Made by a program: the position numbers and the translations under genes. The notes beneath the pieces are model-generated. The model had not been told where the DNA came from. It made no database searches and saw only the letters and a program-made list of their open reading frames with translations. A stretch of DNA of 49,845 nt from Candidatus Omnitrophota bacterium (GTDB lineage Bacteria > Omnitrophota > Gorgyraeia > Gygaellales > Profunditerraquicolaceae): NCBI GenBank assembly GCA_026387405.1, contig JAPLLV010000031.1, positions 1-49,845 of the forward strand. The letters run 5' to 3'. Positions 1,141 to 42,310 of this stretch are shown in pieces (position 1 is the stretch's first letter; each line of letters opens with the position of its first letter).

Positions 1141-3538
1141 AAACGGAAGCGGCGGAACATACGCATTGCAGGATGCCCTCATTGTCACTAATACCCTTAC
1201 CTTGACTAACGGCACCTTCTCTGTCGGGGGAAAGACCCTGACATTGAACGGCCCGGCAATCGCGGGTACACCGGCTAATCTATCCACCACGTCTTCTTCA
1301 AGCCTTGTCTTCGGCGGCAGCTCAAGTGGAGTTAATATCCCAAGTAGTGTGACCGCACTGAACAATCTCACCATTAACAATACCAATGGTGTTACCTTAA
1401 ACTCAAGCCCGGCCATCTCCGGAACGCTCACCTTAACCAGCGGCGCGCTGGGTGCCAATGGTTATAATATAGGAATAGCCGGCGACTGGACTAATAACGG
1501 CGGCACTTTTACCTACGGTTCAGGCACAGTGACCTTTAATGGCGCTGGTGCACAAGCTATTAATGGAACCTCAAACTCGCAGACCTTTAATAATTTAATC
1601 ATTCAGAAGGCCGCAGGCACAACTCTAAGCGTAGGCGGTTCTACTACTAGTTTAACTGTGAATAACCTCACTGAAACAACCGGGAATTTCATTGCGCCGG
1701 CTACACTTAATATCAATGGTAATCTTACTATTACCGGCGGCACCTTCACTGCCGGTGCCAACACCAATATTAAAGGCGGCTGGTCCAAGGCCATTGCCGC
1801 GACATTCACTCCCAACTCGGGCACAGTCACATTTACAGGAACAGGCGCATCGGCCATCTCCGGCTCAAGCGCGTTCTATAATCTTACCTGCGCGACAGCA
1901 GGGAAGACCTTGACCTTTACGGCAGACACGGCCCAAACTGTTACCAACTCGCTTACTCTTACAGGCACAGCGGCAAATCCAATTATCATCAATGATACGG
2001 GCGCGGGTGCAGTGCCGAAACTGACCGTGAACTCCAGCGCCACACAAAGTATCAACAATGTCAGCATCACCAATAACGACGCCTCAGGCGGCATTCAGCT
2101 TGTGGCGCGCGGCACTGGCTCGTCATTACATGGAGTTGTCACAAATTGGGCGCTCGGTTCAACCGGCACAACCTTTACCTGGACGGGTTTAGTTTCCTCT
2201 GACTGGAACGCCTCCGGAAACTGGGATTTAGGTCTTGTGCCGTCTTCTACTGATAAGGTAATTATGCCGTCAGGCACGCCGAATCAACCGGCTCTTACAG
2301 GCTCGATAAGTTTTGTTAATCTTGATCTGAATGTTTCCCTTGATGTTGGCTCATATACTTTGACCATAAGCGGTAATCTTACCGGTTCCGGGACAATCCA
2401 AGGAGTAAGTCCTACTTTATCTGTCGAAGGATACATCGGAATATTTAATCACCCTATTAATATGTCTGTTACCGGCACTCCTACTATATACGCAGGAAGT
2501 ATGTTTAATAATACTTCTATCGCGTTGTCAGGAGTCAAGCGCCCCTATAATTTCCCAGGGGCAATTCCCGGTTTTGTCTTTATCAACGGTCATCTGGAAG
2601 ATAAAATAGGGCAGAATACTATCCGGCCGGTGTTAAATACCGGCTTAAACCCGCTCTACCGCGGCACGAATAATTTTATCGCTCCCGTTCCCACGATGAT
2701 TACGGTTCCAATGTTTATGCCTATGAGAGGATTTGGAGTTATGCCTATGCCGGCGCCTGTCCCGGCGGCAATACCATTACCTGCTCCTGTGCCTGTTCCT
2801 ATAGTAGTACCGATACCTTCAATTGCGCCTGCTGTACATATGCCGCCTGTTATTGCGCCTGAAGAATTCATCGGCGCGAGGACTCATTCAATCCTTCCTC
2901 AGATCGCCACCTCAGAAACATTCCTTGGCAATATCGCCGAGGCGAATCTGCCTGAGCCTTTATTTAGAGGCATTGCAACCTCTGTTAATCTGCCTCTACC
3001 GGTAACCTTTGAGGAATTCAGGGGGAGCCTGGCCGGAGTAAATCTGCCGCAGCCTGCCATTGCCCCGGGATTTAAAGGCATAAGTTCAGAAGGCCTGCTG
3101 CCGCCTGTTATTGCGCCTGAAGAATTCATCGGCGCGAGGACTCATTCAATCCTTCCTCAGATCGCTACTCTAGAAACATTCCTTGGCAATATCGCCGAGG
3201 TGAATCTGCCTGAGCCTTTATTTAGAGGCATTGCAACCTCTGTTAATCTGCCTCTACCGGTAATCTTTGAGGAATTCAGGGGGAGCCTGGCCGGAGTAAA
3301 TCTGCCGCAGCCTGCCATTGCCCCGGGATTTAAAGGCATAAGTTTAAAGACAGCAATACCAATAGTAGAATCTTTAGTTATTAAAGAGATTGTTCCGGGA
3401 ACGAGGGTTGAGCTTATGTTTCCTGGGGGAAAGAATATAATTCCGACTTATGGGATAGGTATTCCGTTTGGGGTAGAAGGCCCGGTTATGGACACTAAAA
3501 TACGGTTAGAGAAAGAGAAAGGAAAACAAGAGCGATAA
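1..3538 (+). CDS. Large repetitive beta-helix/adhesin-like surface protein, 5'-truncated by the window edge
   Basis: Open frame continues to the window start (ISVGGNW before the annotated GTG at 8). Gly/Thr/Asn-rich repeats such as GGNWxNYGTTGTGLTPSxFIADNSTVILTGTGASNTITSG occur twice; Pro/Val-rich C-terminal region. Confidence 0.75.
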   Translation, partial: ISVGGNWLNYGTTGTGLTPSVFIADNSTVILTGTGASNTITSGQTNSPFYNLTQSGTASTDTYTLQDPLVVSHTLTLTTGTLDTKSTGSYAITVGSANPVNGNFDQSSVNSKFVARSSLITLNGNGTFTADGTKDQTQYNAASLVLNGVNTLTYNNFTNYTANGFYNLTVGQSTHTTTLSSNFTVLNLLTVGSGTLTGGSAQVFLLGSTPLSFDAASVVSIYILWFNKAGSQTIPSLAKGYDCHIYLNATPQTVTQTGDVVLNGTRTLILTDSIAAAGSNTWKTDGYNLTVGGNLQIGRGSDTGLKKLDATKYGDGIPANGGRTSTISVGGNWINYGTTGTGLTPSQFIADNSTVILTGTGASNTITSGVSNSPFYNLTQNGSGGTYALQDALIVTNTLTLTNGTFSVGGKTLTLNGPAIAGTPANLSTTSSSSLVFGGSSSGVNIPSSVTALNNLTINNTNGVTLNSSPAISGTLTLTSGALGANGYNIGIAGDWTNNGGTFTYGSGTVTFNGAGAQAINGTSNSQTFNNLIIQKAAGTTLSVGGSTTSLTVNNLTETTGNFIAPATLNINGNLTITGGTFTAGANTNIKGGWSKAIAATFTPNSGTVTFTGTGASAISGSSAFYNLTCATAGKTLTFTADTAQTVTNSLTLTGTAANPIIINDTGAGAVPKLTVNSSATQSINNVSITNNDASGGIQLVARGTGSSLHGVVTNWALGSTGTTFTWTGLVSSDWNASGNWDLGLVPSSTDKVIMPSGTPNQPALTGSISFVNLDLNVSLDVGSYTLTISGNLTGSGTIQGVSPTLSVEGYIGIFNHPINMSVTGTPTIYAGSMFNNTSIALSGVKRPYNFPGAIPGFVFINGHLEDKIGQNTIRPVLNTGLNPLYRGTNNFIAPVPTMITVPMFMPMRGFGVMPMPAPVPAAIPLPAPVPVPIVVPIPSIAPAVHMPPVIAPEEFIGARTHSILPQIATSETFLGNIAEANLPEPLFRGIATSVNLPLPVTFEEFRGSLAGVNLPQPAIAPGFKGISSEGLLPPVIAPEEFIGARTHSILPQIATLETFLGNIAEVNLPEPLFRGIATSVNLPLPVIFEEFRGSLAGVNLPQPAIAPGFKGISLKTAIPIVESLVIKEIVPGTRVELMFPGGKNIIPTYGIGIPFGVEGPVMDTKIRLEKEKGKQER
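2843..3344 (+). repeat. Two tandem 258-bp-period (86 aa) repeat copies: 2843-3086 and 3101-3344
   Basis: PPVIAPEEFIGARTHSILPQIAT.ETFLGNIAE.NLPEPLFRGIATSVNLPLPV.FEEFRGSLAGVNLPQPAIAPGFKGIS occurs twice with only a few nucleotide differences. Confidence 0.95.
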
Positions 3539-9996: not shown

Positions 9997-11352
9997 ATGC
10001 CTGACATTTATCTGGCTTCGCGCTCTAAGGCGCGCAGAGAACTGCTTAAGTCTCTAGGGATAAAATTTAAGGTCATCCCTGTTGATATTAAGGAAAAAAG
10101 TAATCCTAAGTATTCATCTTACGCGCGTCTGGTCAGGCATAACGCTTTGCTCAAGGCGCGCGCGGCAGGGCGCAGAGTTGAAAGCGGCGTCATTATCGCA
10201 GCCGATACCCTGATGGTGCAGGACAAAATTATTTTCGTCAAGCCGAAAAATTTAGCCGATGCCCGCAGGATGCTGAAAAATTTAAGCGCTAAGCCGCAGA
10301 CAGTCTATACCGGCATTGCGCTTATTGATAAAGACAGCGGCAGAGAGTCTTGCGATTACGAAAAGACAAAAGTTTATATGGATAAATTGAGCGATAATGA
10401 TATTGATAATTATTTTGCCTGCGTTTCGCCATTAGGTAAGGCCGGCAGTTACGATATCTCGGGGCGCGGTGCTTTTTTTATCCGGCGTATTGAGGGTTGT
10501 TTCTATAACGTGGTCGGGCTGCCTATAAGAAAACTATACAGGATGCTTAGAAAATTGGATATTAAAGTTTTTTCATTTGCTATCTGCTATATGCTATATG
10601 CTATTTTTTTATGTGGTTGTTCCACGGAATATAACGTCGCTACTAATAAGGAGGAGACGTTCTTCTACACTACCGAAAAGGAAGTCGCGATGGGCAAGGC
10701 TATCGACCGCCAGGTACTGACCCAGCATAAACTTACAGAGGATCTTCTTGTGCAGAAGCGGATAGAGGATATAGGCCGGAAGATCGTAGCTGTCTGCGAC
10801 AGAAAAGATATCGATTACCATTTTAAGGTGCTGGAGGACGATGAGGTCAATGCCGTATCGCTTCCGGGCGGGTTTGTGTATGTCAATAGCGGGTTGGTCA
10901 AGAGGGCAGCTAATGACGACGAATTGGCCGCGGTATTAGCGCATGAAGTGGGGCATATCGTTGCCCGGCACAGCATCAAGAAGCTGCAGGGTATGATGGG
11001 CTATACCCTGCTGCGCCTCCTGACCCTGGCAGCCCCTTCCGGCGGCGGGGCAGTTGGAGGGGCCGCGGACGCCGCTTTTAATGAACTGATGCTGGGGTAT
11101 TCGCGGGAAGATGAATTTCTGGCGGATCAGATGTCCGTGCGTTATACAAAGTTAGCCGGCTATAATCCTCACGCGATGATAGATTTTTTAAAGAAACTCA
11201 AGGAGTCAGACCGCAGGAAACCGCTTAGGCAAATAAATTATTTCAAGACTCACCCCTATGTCCCGGACCGCATTCGGGTGGTCAAACAGGCGTTAGGCGA
11301 GAGCATAGGCTTTTCCGACTATATTAATACCGAGCAGCAGCCCCATGACTAG
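9997..11352 (+). CDS. Fusion ORF: Maf-family nucleotide pyrophosphatase followed in frame by a lipoprotein-type M48 metallopeptidase
   Basis: N-term MPDIYLASRSKARRELLKSLGI..ADT..GKAGSYDISGRGAFFIRRIEGCFYNVVGLPI (Maf); then FAICYMLYAIFLCGCST (lipobox) and VLAHEVGHIVARH (HExxH) M48. Confidence 0.85.
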   Translation: MPDIYLASRSKARRELLKSLGIKFKVIPVDIKEKSNPKYSSYARLVRHNALLKARAAGRRVESGVIIAADTLMVQDKIIFVKPKNLADARRMLKNLSAKPQTVYTGIALIDKDSGRESCDYEKTKVYMDKLSDNDIDNYFACVSPLGKAGSYDISGRGAFFIRRIEGCFYNVVGLPIRKLYRMLRKLDIKVFSFAICYMLYAIFLCGCSTEYNVATNKEETFFYTTEKEVAMGKAIDRQVLTQHKLTEDLLVQKRIEDIGRKIVAVCDRKDIDYHFKVLEDDEVNAVSLPGGFVYVNSGLVKRAANDDELAAVLAHEVGHIVARHSIKKLQGMMGYTLLRLLTLAAPSGGGAVGGAADAAFNELMLGYSREDEFLADQMSVRYTKLAGYNPHAMIDFLKKLKESDRRKPLRQINYFKTHPYVPDRIRVVKQALGESIGFSDYINTEQQPHD

Positions 11353-21582: not shown

Positions 21583-21654
21583 TGTATTCGATACGAAGGC
21601 GTGTCAAAAAGAGCAGACAGAGACGTTCAGCAGAGCGTCTTTTTTTATGCGCCT

Positions 21655-21822
21655 TATACATGCTTAATTTCTTTTATTTTCCCGTTTATCGGGGAAATGA
21701 AAGAAGGCGGGGAGACCAAGAATTCGATCAAGCGGATCTTGGGGCGAATATCTGGATTTTTAGATTAGGGTTTCTCAACCCGAGCCCGACAGCTAACCTC
21801 GTGAGCATTGATGAGAGAACAC
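21655..21822 (+). promoter_or_regulatory. c-di-AMP riboswitch (ydaO/yuaA type) upstream of kdp
   Basis: Conserved blocks ggcggggagaccaag ... cttggggcgaat ... agggtttctcaacccgagcccgacagctaacctcgtgagc ... gagag match the ydaO consensus as I know it. Boundaries approximate. Confidence 0.92.
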
Positions 21823-32040: not shown

Positions 32041-32460
32041 TGGGGGGGTGAAAGGGCTCGACTTAGGTAAGTCGGGTAAGAGTAGCATGCCGCGGACGCA
32101 GGGTGGGCCGCGTTAACAATCCTTGCACAATATAAACGCAAAAACGAACATCAGTTCGATGGCAGCAGAAAGATATAGTGCCGTTCTTCCTTTAGGTTTA
32201 GGAGTGGCACCTATATTTACTGCTCCAGCGTTTGCAGCCCTTCCTTAATTAAATAAGGAAGGCCTCAACCCGGGATGCCCACGATCCGGGATTGAGCGCA
32301 AGTGGGCTAACCATGCGCTTTTTGCCTTTGGGTGCCTGGTGAAAGTTTAAAAGGCTGCTGCTTGCCTGATCCTGTCTATCGGAGCGGGCAAGAGCAAGCG
32401 TAAAAGACAGACTAAGCATGTAGCGACTTTTATCTGATTGCTTAGGGACGGCGGTTCGAT

Positions 32461-33115
32461 TCACTAGAGTCGCGCTAAGAGGTGACTTTTAGCGAAAACC
32501 TAGCTTAATCAGGGAAGCCCTAACGTACCTGCCTGTCGTCAGACAGGAAGCCGAGGGTAATCCTGAGGGGTGCAAGCCCTGCAGAGACTCCTGATGCAAA
32601 GGGGATAGGGGGTGTTACCGTTGGAAGAAGTCGAGAAAGCGTATATTGCGGGAATCGTTGATGGCGAAGGGACAGTAACCCTGATGAAGCACCATAAAAA
32701 TGAAACGCATATCCCTTTTATCGGGATTGCTAATAATAATTTGGTGCTTCTGAAGTGGATTAAGTCTTTAGCCGGAGGCAATATTTGCTCAAAGAAGAAA
32801 AGGTTGCCGCATCACAATGATTCCTATGTCTTGAATATAAGACAAGATAGGGCTTTACGCTTCCTCGGCGAAATAGGCAAATACCTAATCATAAAGAAGC
32901 CACAGGCAGAGTTAATACTGAATAAGTATAAATCTGTCACGCGTCGTAACGGAAGATATACTACTGCGTTACTACAAAAAAAGATGCGGTTGGTTGCTGA
33001 GATTAGGAAGCTTAACCATCGGTAAAATTATGCCTCCTATAATACGCTAGGCTCTTGCTAGATAAAGCAAGATGAAGAGATAGTCCACGCTATCTGGAAA
33101 CAGATAGAGCACGTG
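32461..33115 (+). mobile_element. Group I intron in the tmRNA T-loop
   Basis: P1 candidate cgau|uc-acta-gagucg with U.G at the splice site; core-like blocks gcagagactcc and agatagtccacgc; omega-G at 33115; exact T-arm reconstitution. Confidence 0.88.
32612..33025 (+). CDS. LAGLIDADG homing endonuclease encoded in the tmRNA intron
   Basis: AYIAGIVDGEGTVTL single LAGLIDADG motif; 137 aa; GTG start. Confidence 0.88.
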   Translation: MLPLEEVEKAYIAGIVDGEGTVTLMKHHKNETHIPFIGIANNNLVLLKWIKSLAGGNICSKKKRLPHHNDSYVLNIRQDRALRFLGEIGKYLIIKKPQAELILNKYKSVTRRNGRYTTALLQKKMRLVAEIRKLNHR

Positions 33116-33137
33116 TCCGCCCACCTCCACCAAATTT

Positions 33138-33176
33138 GCAAATGGCACGTGGCACGTGGCAAATGGCGAATAGCAG
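33138..33176 (+). repeat. Heptamer-period array, family 1, left-type (gcaaatg gcacgtg gcacgtg gcaaatg gcgaata gcag)
   Basis: GC recurs every 7 bp; begins 6 bp after the tmRNA CCA. Confidence 0.9.
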
Positions 33177-33183
33177 AAAGAAA

Positions 33184-34311
33184 ATGAAACGCGCAATATT
33201 TAATCACAGATCGAGGATATTTTATTATGGCTATTTGCTATTTGCTATTTGCCCCGTGCTATTTGCTATTTGCTATTTGCTATCCGGTTGCGCCACTCTT
33301 CCTACGAGAGAGTCTTTGCCCACCTATACCATAAAAGGAGTTACCTATTTGCCTTTAGCTGCCCTTTGTAATTCCAGGGATATAACTTGGGAATACGATA
33401 CCTTCACCCGTTCGGCTGTCCTGAAAAAGGAGGGCCATAAGATAAATCTGCGCGTGGGAGATGATCTCGTGTTGGTTGACGGTGTTGCCGAAAACATCAG
33501 CAGCCCTGTGGATATTTATCAGGGGGTTTTGGTGGTGCCTTACAGGTTCAAGGTAAAGATACTGGACGATTTATATAAGACCCCGACTGCCGGCAGAAGG
33601 TTGCCGGTTGTTTTATCAAGGCTTAAGACCATAGTTATAGATGCCGGACACGGCGGAAAAGACCCCGGGACTACAGGCAAGACCGGCTTAAAGGAGAAAG
33701 ATATCAATCTGGATATCGCAAGAAGGCTTGCCAGGATTCTTAAGAACAGCGGGGTCAATGTGATCATGACGCGCACCAATGATACGTATCCGTCGCTTGC
33801 GCGCAGGGTGGCCATCGCGAATAATGCCAAAGCGGATCTGTTCATGAGCATCCATACCAACGCCAACCGGGTAAGGAGTCTTAAGGGTTTTGAGGTGTAT
33901 TATGTCTCTCCCAAGGCGGATGATTCAAAACGCGCGCTTGCCAGCGCCAGGGAGGCAGCTTTAAATCTAGATAAGAGTTGTTTTGCCGGTAATTCCCTGT
34001 ATCTGAGAGCCACGGTCTGGGATCTGCTTTATACCTATAACCGCGGCGAATCCATGGAACTCGCCAGCTCTATATGCCATACGATACATAAAAACGTTGA
34101 TGTCTGCGTGCTGGGAGTGAAGAACGCGAATTTTTTTGTCCTGCGCGGGGCGCGCATGCCCGCGGTGTTGGTGGAGATAGGCTTTCTTTCAAATTCGAAA
34201 GAAGAGCGGTTGCTGAAGAATAATTTTTACCGTCAGGAGATCGCCGAATCCCTGACGCGCGGGTTAGAGGATTATGAACAAGGATTACCGATTGTCACCT
34301 CGCGCTATTAG
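33184..34311 (+). CDS. N-acetylmuramoyl-L-alanine amidase (Amidase_3), lipoprotein
   Basis: IVIDAGHGGKDPGTTGKTGLKEKDINLDIARRLARIL..VLVEIGFLSNSKEE; lipobox LLSGC. Start reassigned from 33136. Confidence 0.9.
   Translation: MKRAIFNHRSRIFYYGYLLFAICPVLFAICYLLSGCATLPTRESLPTYTIKGVTYLPLAALCNSRDITWEYDTFTRSAVLKKEGHKINLRVGDDLVLVDGVAENISSPVDIYQGVLVVPYRFKVKILDDLYKTPTAGRRLPVVLSRLKTIVIDAGHGGKDPGTTGKTGLKEKDINLDIARRLARILKNSGVNVIMTRTNDTYPSLARRVAIANNAKADLFMSIHTNANRVRSLKGFEVYYVSPKADDSKRALASAREAALNLDKSCFAGNSLYLRATVWDLLYTYNRGESMELASSICHTIHKNVDVCVLGVKNANFFVLRGARMPAVLVEIGFLSNSKEERLLKNNFYRQEIAESLTRGLEDYEQGLPIVTSRY
33229..33285 (+). repeat. Heptamer-period array, family 1, right-type, 8 units, within the amidase signal peptide
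   Basis: gctattt x3, gccccgt, gctattt x3, gctatcc. Confidence 0.95.
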
Positions 34312-37721: not shown

Positions 37722-38393
37722 ATGAAAGGCCGGATTAACGAGGTATTTAAGAGTGTCCAGGGCGAAGGCCCCTATGCGGGCGAAGAGCAGGTCTTCGTGC
37801 GTTTATTCGGCTGCAATTTGAGCTGCAGATTTTGCGATACGCCTTTGAAGGGCTTTCGCGAATATGAGCCACAGGAGCTCCTGGAAGACATAAAGTCGCA
37901 TAAACAGGAAGTGCATTCCGTGTCCTTTACCGGAGGGGAGCCGCTTTTGCAGAGAGATTTCTTAAGGGAGGTGTTGATGCTTACCTCTCAGGCGGGATAT
38001 AAGAATTACCTTGAGACCAACGGCACGCTATTCTCCGAATTAAAAGGTCTGATAGATTTTGTGGATATTGTGGCCATGGATTTCAAATTATCCAGTTCCG
38101 CAGGCATGGGAGATCTCCTGTGGATGCACCGCAGGTTCCTGGAGATCGCCTCAAAAAAAGAGGTTTTCATAAAGGCGGTTGTCTGCGCGACAACAACCGA
38201 GAGCGACCTGGCTGAAAGCTTAAAATTAATAAAAGAAGTAAAGCGCGACGCGATCTTAGTGCTGCAGCCTAATAGCCGCGAAGCGGGACCCCAGCTTCAG
38301 GATAAATTAGCTCGTTTCAAAGAACTGAGTGAGGCTGAAGGCGTGGATACGCGCGTCATCCCGCAGATGCATAAGGAGTGGGGAGTCAAGTAG
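37722..38393 (+). CDS. queE: 7-carboxy-7-deazaguanine synthase (radical SAM)
   Basis: FKSVQGEGPYAGEEQVFVRLFGCNLSCRFCDTP; FTGGEPLLQ. Confidence 0.95.
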   Translation: MKGRINEVFKSVQGEGPYAGEEQVFVRLFGCNLSCRFCDTPLKGFREYEPQELLEDIKSHKQEVHSVSFTGGEPLLQRDFLREVLMLTSQAGYKNYLETNGTLFSELKGLIDFVDIVAMDFKLSSSAGMGDLLWMHRRFLEIASKKEVFIKAVVCATTTESDLAESLKLIKEVKRDAILVLQPNSREAGPQLQDKLARFKELSEAEGVDTRVIPQMHKEWGVK

Positions 38394-38422
38394 TCGTTAG
38401 TCGTTGGTCGCTAGTCGTTGGT
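38393..38422. repeat. Heptamer family 2 array directly after queE
   Basis: gtcgtta gtcgttg gtcgcta gtcgttg g. Confidence 0.85.
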
Positions 38423-41708: not shown

Positions 41709-41786
41709 CGGGGCGTAGCTCAGTTTGGCTAGAGCGTTTGGTTTGGGACCAAAAGGCCACAGGTTCAAGTCCTGTCGCCCCGACCA
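41709..41786 (+). tRNA. tRNA-Pro (UGG), CCA encoded
   Basis: CGGGGCG acceptor, loop UUUGGGA, GUUCAAGUC T-arm, 3' CGCCCCGACCA. Confidence 0.96.
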
Positions 41787-41790
41787 GTTA

Positions 41791-41846
41791 GCTAATGGCA
41801 CGTAGCATATGGCAAATGGCACGTAGCAGAGGGCACATGGCCGGAT
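41791..41846 (+). repeat. Heptamer family 1 array, left-type, 8 degenerate units
   Basis: gctaatg gcacgta gcatatg gcaaatg gcacgta gcagagg gcacatg gccggat. Confidence 0.9.
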
Positions 41847-42197
41847 ATGTTTAGATTTGAGGAACTAGATATCTGGAAGCTCGCAGTGGATTACGCTCAC
41901 GATATTTATACCATTGCAAATAAATTTCCTCTTAATGAGCAGTATAACGTTACTTCACAACTTAAAAGAGCTGGTTTATCAATTTCGAACAACATCGCTG
42001 AAGGGTCGGGTGTTACGACAAACAAAAATTTTAGTTCGTTCTTAGATATCAGCGTATCATCTGCTTTAGAGACAGTAAACATTTTGTATTTTGCGGCTCG
42101 AAGAGGTTATATTAGCGAATCTGAACGATTAAACTATTACCAAAAAGCCGAAACATTAATTAAGAAGATCAGAGCATTTAAGAATTCTTTGAAATAG
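41847..42197 (+). CDS. Four-helix-bundle protein (23S rRNA intervening sequence/S23 family, Avd-like fold)
   Basis: FEELDIWKLAVDYAHDIYTIANKFP..YNVTSQLKRAGLSISNNIAEGSG....FLDISVSSALETVNILYFAARRGYIS. Confidence 0.92.
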   Translation: MFRFEELDIWKLAVDYAHDIYTIANKFPLNEQYNVTSQLKRAGLSISNNIAEGSGVTTNKNFSSFLDISVSSALETVNILYFAARRGYISESERLNYYQKAETLIKKIRAFKNSLK

Positions 42198-42230
42198 CCT
42201 ATTTGCTATTTGCAATATGCTATTTGCAAA
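42197..42230 (+). repeat. Heptamer family 1 array, right-type
   Basis: gcctatt tgctatt tgcaata tgctatt tgcaaac; ends 3 bp before tRNA-Arg. Confidence 0.85.
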
Positions 42231-42233
42231 CCT

Positions 42234-42310
42234 GCGCCTGTAGCTCAAATGGACAGAGCATCTGCCTTCTAAGCCGAGGGTTGGCCGTTCGATTCGGCCC
42301 AGGCGCGCCA
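42234..42310 (+). tRNA. tRNA-Arg (UCU), CCA encoded
   Basis: GCGCCUG/CAGGCGC acceptor; loop CUUCUAA; GUUCGAUUC T-arm; GCCA end. Confidence 0.95.

Follow-up and report, generated by a model that had tools for sequence, protein, structure and literature searches.

The IVP/S23 gene between tRNA-Pro and tRNA-Arg in the window (the whole 49,845-bp stretch of DNA analysed here) is bracketed by two arms of degenerate 7-bp repeats (Table 1). This block is probably a small selfish mobile element, in which IVP would recognise the heptads of its cognate arms and mobilise itself together with hairpin derivatives. Comparison across genomes shows that arms are associated with IVP genes and complementary to each other, that protein and heptad covary, that hairpins of the same heptad are dispersed, that elements are polymorphic in presence and absence, and that their orientation goes with transcription. 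Heptad arms appear to be a family-wide companion of IVP genes and apparently form the termini of a very small mobile element.

Table 1. Arms, genes and related features in the window.
Feature	Coordinates	Strand	Evidence
tRNA-Pro(TGG), left neighbour, CCA-ended	41709..41786	+	ARAGORN; Rfam tRNA
Left arm, eight GCNNRTR heptads up to the ATG	41791..41846	+	Sequence, lag-7 score
IVP/S23 four-helix-bundle gene, 116 aa	41847..42197	+	HMM, AF2 pLDDT 96.8, fold matches
Right arm, GCTATTT type, inverted complement of the left-arm heptads, abutting the stop codon	about 42198..42230	+	
tRNA-Arg(TCT), right neighbour	42234..42310	+	ARAGORN
ORF-less element, left arm, with the window-IVP heptad, starting just past the apparent tmRNA 3' CCA	33133..33174	+	RNA hairpin z=-7.4
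Right arm of the same ORF-less element, translated as an AICYLLF-type hydrophobic signal peptide that precedes the lipobox Cys in the gene downstream	33230..33283	+	
Lone arm from the same heptad family, within a further lipoprotein-type signal peptide	10575..10604	+	

The block is about 440 bp long, and its IVP gene is in sense with both flanking tRNA genes. The left array has a lag-7 score of 11 (shuffle mean 2.8, p = 1e-4) and the right array one of 14 (shuffle mean 2.5, p = 5e-5), with 20,000 shuffles each. Lags from 3 to 12 other than 7 all score 3 or less in both arrays. When reverse-complemented, the right array aligns to the left array with a score of 17, against a mean of 6.2 and a maximum of 12 for shuffled sequences. 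Coordinates and shuffle tests thus agree with the preliminary description, which placed 7-bp arrays around an IVP gene between these two tRNA genes and regarded the right array as the complementary type of the left. The left array indeed runs to the base before the ATG, as had been described, while its distance from the CCA of tRNA-Pro, given there as 5 bp, is 4 bp. In the RNA fold of the element the arms are paired, yet the z of the whole element is only -1.0. A tRNA-targeting integrative element was considered and rejected, as IVP is the sole ORF and the 3' end of tRNA-Pro is not duplicated at the right end. Three-frame stop codons were also rejected as the cause of the 7-bp period, with 33% observed and 29% in column-shuffled arms.

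The S23/IVP identity of the 116-aa cargo, proposed earlier from the letters, is corroborated by PF05635 (E=8e-30, 103.6 bits, curated cut-off 33.8) and TIGR02436 (E=7e-28, 97 bits, cut-off 24). S23/IVP proteins, a family long without an assigned function, have been described as passengers of 23S intervening sequences (IVS). The AF2 model of the window IVP matches 2gsc with a TM of 0.92 and 2rld with 0.75-0.80. The solved relatives have five chains per entry. We know of no catalytic residues or recombinase domain in IVP, and the window element encodes no known recombinase. The four-helix-bundle fold is common to Avd of diversity-generating retroelements (DGRs), as the preliminary description stated: Avd 4dwl matches the model with TM 0.80/0.86 and rmsd 1.7, with a Foldseek E-value weaker than those of 2gsc and 2rld, and DGR ribonucleoprotein structures match likewise. 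From this shared fold, IVP could be imagined as an Avd-like factor in a DGR-like diversification, with a reverse transcriptase mutating the inner bases of the arrays. Such a process is very improbable here. It is disfavoured because reverse transcriptase (RVT_1) has no match in the genome of the window, which is 92.9% complete, and the variation is limited to a small set of recurring unit types. IVP also differs from Avd in its sequence, with about 10% identity, and no DGR context was seen. Among the roles suggested earlier for the arrays, a templated or mutagenic process loses ground for these reasons, whereas their role as element ends gains from the arm-IVP link and the empty sites described below.

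All PF05635 loci found in 58 relatives were collected, and named genomes across many phyla contributed a further 80. The closest relatives of the window IVP point to Omnitrophota as the host phylum. A viral-contig query had few relatives (2 loci). An array was called at a period-7 score of at least 8, which 1.2% of shuffled flanks pass. Arrays were found in 69% of the upstream and 66% of the downstream flanks of 146 IVP loci in Omnitrophota and further phyla, where homologous elements at orthologous sites, notably in Bacteroidota, are not independent samples. About one third of IVP flanks have no detectable array. The period-7 score is 11.5/11.8 at 69 loci of relatives, against 3.4-5.1 at other periods except the multiple 14, and 11.2/10.8 at 79 loci of other phyla. 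Among other genes of the same loci, about 12% are array-positive, in some cases through an array close by. The expected enrichment of arrays beside S23-family genes is therefore seen across phyla. The arms pair better with their partner at their own locus (17.7) than with arms of other loci (9.05), and match better in inverted than in direct orientation in 71 of 78 cases. The preliminary description would have been abandoned had arrays shown no association with IVP genes or had there been no empty sites; both the association and an occupied/empty polymorphism were found.

In 1.13 Mb of sequence, period-7 segments number 126 per Mb and those of neighbouring periods 0-30, and 77 of 142 period-7 arrays fall in the 6.7% adjoining IVP genes. 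Ordinary slippage-prone 7-bp repeats could gather in spacers and meet IVP genes incidentally, since heptamers rank among the common repeats of many bacteria (PMC4679880) and their copy number differs among Coxiella strains (PMC4990558). The concentration of about half of the arrays around IVP genes makes this origin hardly credible, as do the two arms being inverted copies of one heptad and the heptad following the protein across phyla. The TAACTGA repeats of Beggiatoaceae are dispersed intergenic 7-bp direct repeats in many copies near start codons, and the text of that paper mentions neither S23 nor intervening sequences (PMC4679880). They resemble IVP arms as intergenic 7-bp repeats in many copies, and differ in that inverted pairs are nearly absent (PMC4679880).

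The heptad differs between elements and agrees between the two arms of one element. The more alike two IVPs are in sequence, the more alike are their heptads (Mantel r=0.48, with at most 0.15 in permutations), and the reverse-complement control gives r=0.13. Between phyla the correlation is r=0.44, with a maximum of 0.31 in within-phylum permutation. Cross-phylum pairs at 50-60% protein identity have 27% identity at four-fold sites, which equals random, and their heptad similarity is 0.515 against 0.369 for the control; these 33 closest pairs are not independent, with few elements behind them. Since heptads are alike where synonymous sites are saturated, linked neutral descent would be insufficient, and constraint or renewed matching is needed. 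The coupling of protein and heptad fits the arrays being binding sites of IVP.

Arms of the same kinds also form hairpins without any ORF. The heptad pattern has 110 matches in the genome of the window, where its reversed control has 11. The clustered matches comprise, among others, two hairpins lying between tRNA-Lys, tRNA-Leu and tRNA-Gly and one after tRNA-Gly. Relatives mostly have 0-10 matches, with bursts in genomes G024, G048 and G052. As RNA, the hairpins are strong, with z from -2.8 to -7.4, the latter for the element behind the tmRNA gene (Table 1). A sister heptad, GCGNNTA, is carried by an IVP element with two copies of ~99% identity at different sites of the window's genome, one after a cooS-like and the other after a glmS-like coding sequence. 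As read from the sequence, its first TAG acts as the stop codon of the upstream coding sequence. As a candidate target-site duplication, such as a MITE-like element would have, the two copies suggest a TA...TA boundary, seen in this single element with the pairing of its contig halves inferred. This sister heptad also makes up at least 15 hairpins without an ORF, 62-86 bp long, and the GCG-type variants form a small recurring unit set: GCGTATA, GCGTAGA, GCGTTTA, and GCGGATA. The arm order of ORF-less hairpins follows the direction of the flanking genes, although this is suggestive only. Automatic scoring of arm polarity matched the flanking direction in 12-13 of 16 GCG-type hairpins. Re-reading by the outermost heptads gave 13 that agree with both flanks, one that agrees with one flank, one discordant by a simple ORF call, and one unclassifiable.

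In other phyla, arrays unlinked to IVP resemble the heptad of the resident IVP only modestly above chance (p=0.018). G024 has many GCG-type arrays, yet none of the IVPs found in it has a GCG-type heptad. The genome of the window also contains dispersed copies of a third heptad family, GTCGTTA/TAACGAC (window 38391-38422 and loci L239, L244, L254, and L258), for which no IVP with that heptad was found. A very long array of about 26 heptads occupies 2-185 of L245 (G000:C40) at a contig end. Two arms in the window (Table 1) and others in L013 and L014 are read as AICYLLF-repeat signal peptides before a lipobox Cys; repeat arms may have been co-opted as lipoprotein signals. At about 569-603 of L250, a heptad array lies within a folP-like coding sequence and adds a short peptide.

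The 3' part of the tmRNA gene itself (window 32051-33131, Rfam) apparently contains a group I-like intron that carries a LAGLIDADG-type ORF (about 32620-33025), and the CCACCTCCACCA end of the gene is near 33131. In two relatives, tRNA-Arg is apparently split by an insert with an endonuclease-like ORF (L016, L017, and L281). Other features of the window are a 258-bp tandem duplication with 97% matching at 2841-3344 and a c-di-AMP riboswitch (Rfam) at 21651-21822.

A single-gene element accompanied by many short non-autonomous intergenic hairpins with species-specific bursts resembles REPIN-RAYT systems, where stem-loop ends are moved in trans. A Y1 transposase of the IS200/RAYT type could move arms and hairpins in trans, in a REPIN-like manner, with IVP as a passenger or helper. 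Stem-loop ends moved in trans would be just the REPIN pattern, and Y1_Tnp has 4 matches in the genome of the window and at least one in 43 of 58 relatives. REPINs as such are described in PMC3116915. This explanation is rather improbable, however. The flanks of 20 Y1/RAYT-type genes are array-positive in 5%/10%, far from the 69%/66% of IVP, and it is the IVP protein that the heptad tracks. Y1 matches are lacking altogether in several genomes whose IVP is armed, for example G007, G030 (98% complete), and G038. RAYT was rejected as the main owner of the arms, RAYT-type flanks being mostly without arrays. The IVP element further differs from REPIN-RAYT in having no Y1 transposase and in having 7-bp tandem arrays as arms.

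The pair of tRNA-Pro and tRNA-Arg is conserved in the host family. Its spacer is 5, 20, 43, or 67 bp in some genera and contains unrelated inserts in others. In G049, which belongs to another family of the same order, the spacer holds a different IVP element with 35% identity and a different heptad. In its congener G048 the spacer is about 24 bp and empty of IVP. The occupied and empty spacers, together with the varied inserts, indicate that this spacer is a recurrent landing site. Two other IVP sites of G049 also differ in G048: at one (L094) IVP is absent, and at the other (L084) a GIY-YIG-like ORF is in its place. An IVP element can thus be present or absent between genomes at the same tRNA-Pro/tRNA-Arg spacer, a polymorphism that the preliminary description had proposed to look for. 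This evidence of movement consists of presence/absence and copy number in draft assemblies, and the target-site flanks of the other occupied/empty pairs are too diverged to compare. A tRNA gene lies within 200 bp of 10 of 154 IVP loci, against 0.7% of random positions, an adjacency to tRNA genes above the control. Counting the window IVP itself, its subgroup at 66% identity or more has five members, all of them near tRNA genes. The subfamily of the window IVP may prefer spacers behind tRNA genes.

Where the flanking genes are co-directional, IVP has the same direction in 99 of 105 cases and is opposed in 6. The arrays start a median of 4 bp past the upstream stop codon. This placement of hairpins and IVP genes, intercistronic, along transcription and a few bases past stop codons, could also be expected of a regulator at the RNA level. 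IVP would then bind heptad hairpins in transcripts and control its own operon and a scattered regulon, and hairpins would be kept as regulatory sites, not as selfish ones. The strength of the RNA hairpins is in line with this, as is the arm order in most of the 16 ORF-less GCG-type hairpins by the outermost-heptad re-reading. The related Avd acts in a ribonucleoprotein whose structures match the fold. Against regulation, bursts of copy number occur in single genera, with values near zero in their relatives, arrays also lie within the folP-like coding sequence and signal peptides, and sites are empty in a congener. Regulation is unlikely on balance, though less so than transposition by Y1.

As a mobile element, the block could work as follows. 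The two inverted arms would be its ends, and the four-helix bundle of IVP would bind the arm heptad, either as DNA or as RNA. IVP may act in trans on ORF-less hairpins of the same heptad. The spread would be mainly into spacers between co-directional genes, just past stop codons. By analogy with the Coxiella IVS, the arms may fold in the transcript and then be cut, as by RNase III, and insertions in tRNA and mRNA operons would thereby be tolerable. It can be speculated that folded arms also mark insertions for the IVP protein. Candidates for cutting and joining are host replication and repair enzymes, or a transposase in trans.

The 23S rRNA IVS of Leptospira and Coxiella burnetii share with the window element the protein family, terminal inverted repeats that pair as RNA, and an ORF in sense. 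Unlike them, the window element lies between tRNA genes, outside the 23S rRNA helix. Both of its arms are heptad arrays, the heptad varies by IVP lineage, and ORF-less hairpins are dispersed. In the IVS of C. burnetii, the S23p ORF is immediately preceded by a tandem array of three GACAGAT heptamers, with two or three units depending on the strain; RNase III excises this IVS from rRNA with a cut site at the first heptamer (PMC4990558). Heptamers are therefore already known in one 23S element, and a general rule for the IVP family is apparently unreported. We found only the Coxiella heptamers and unrelated heptamers, in a search with subscription papers outside its reach, by which absence is not proven.

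Tentatively, IVP/S23 proteins could define a widespread class of mobile elements whose movement relies on protein-matched heptad arms, with no known type of recombinase or reverse transcriptase encoded by the elements themselves. Among the landing sites of this class, that of the classical 23S IVS would be a special one. The family-wide, protein-specific heptad signature is a concrete candidate ligand for S23/IVP proteins. With it, the question of how these elements move can be put directly to binding and mobility assays. Many of the heptad hairpins dispersed between cistrons, and some lipoprotein signal peptides, may also owe their origin to such elements.
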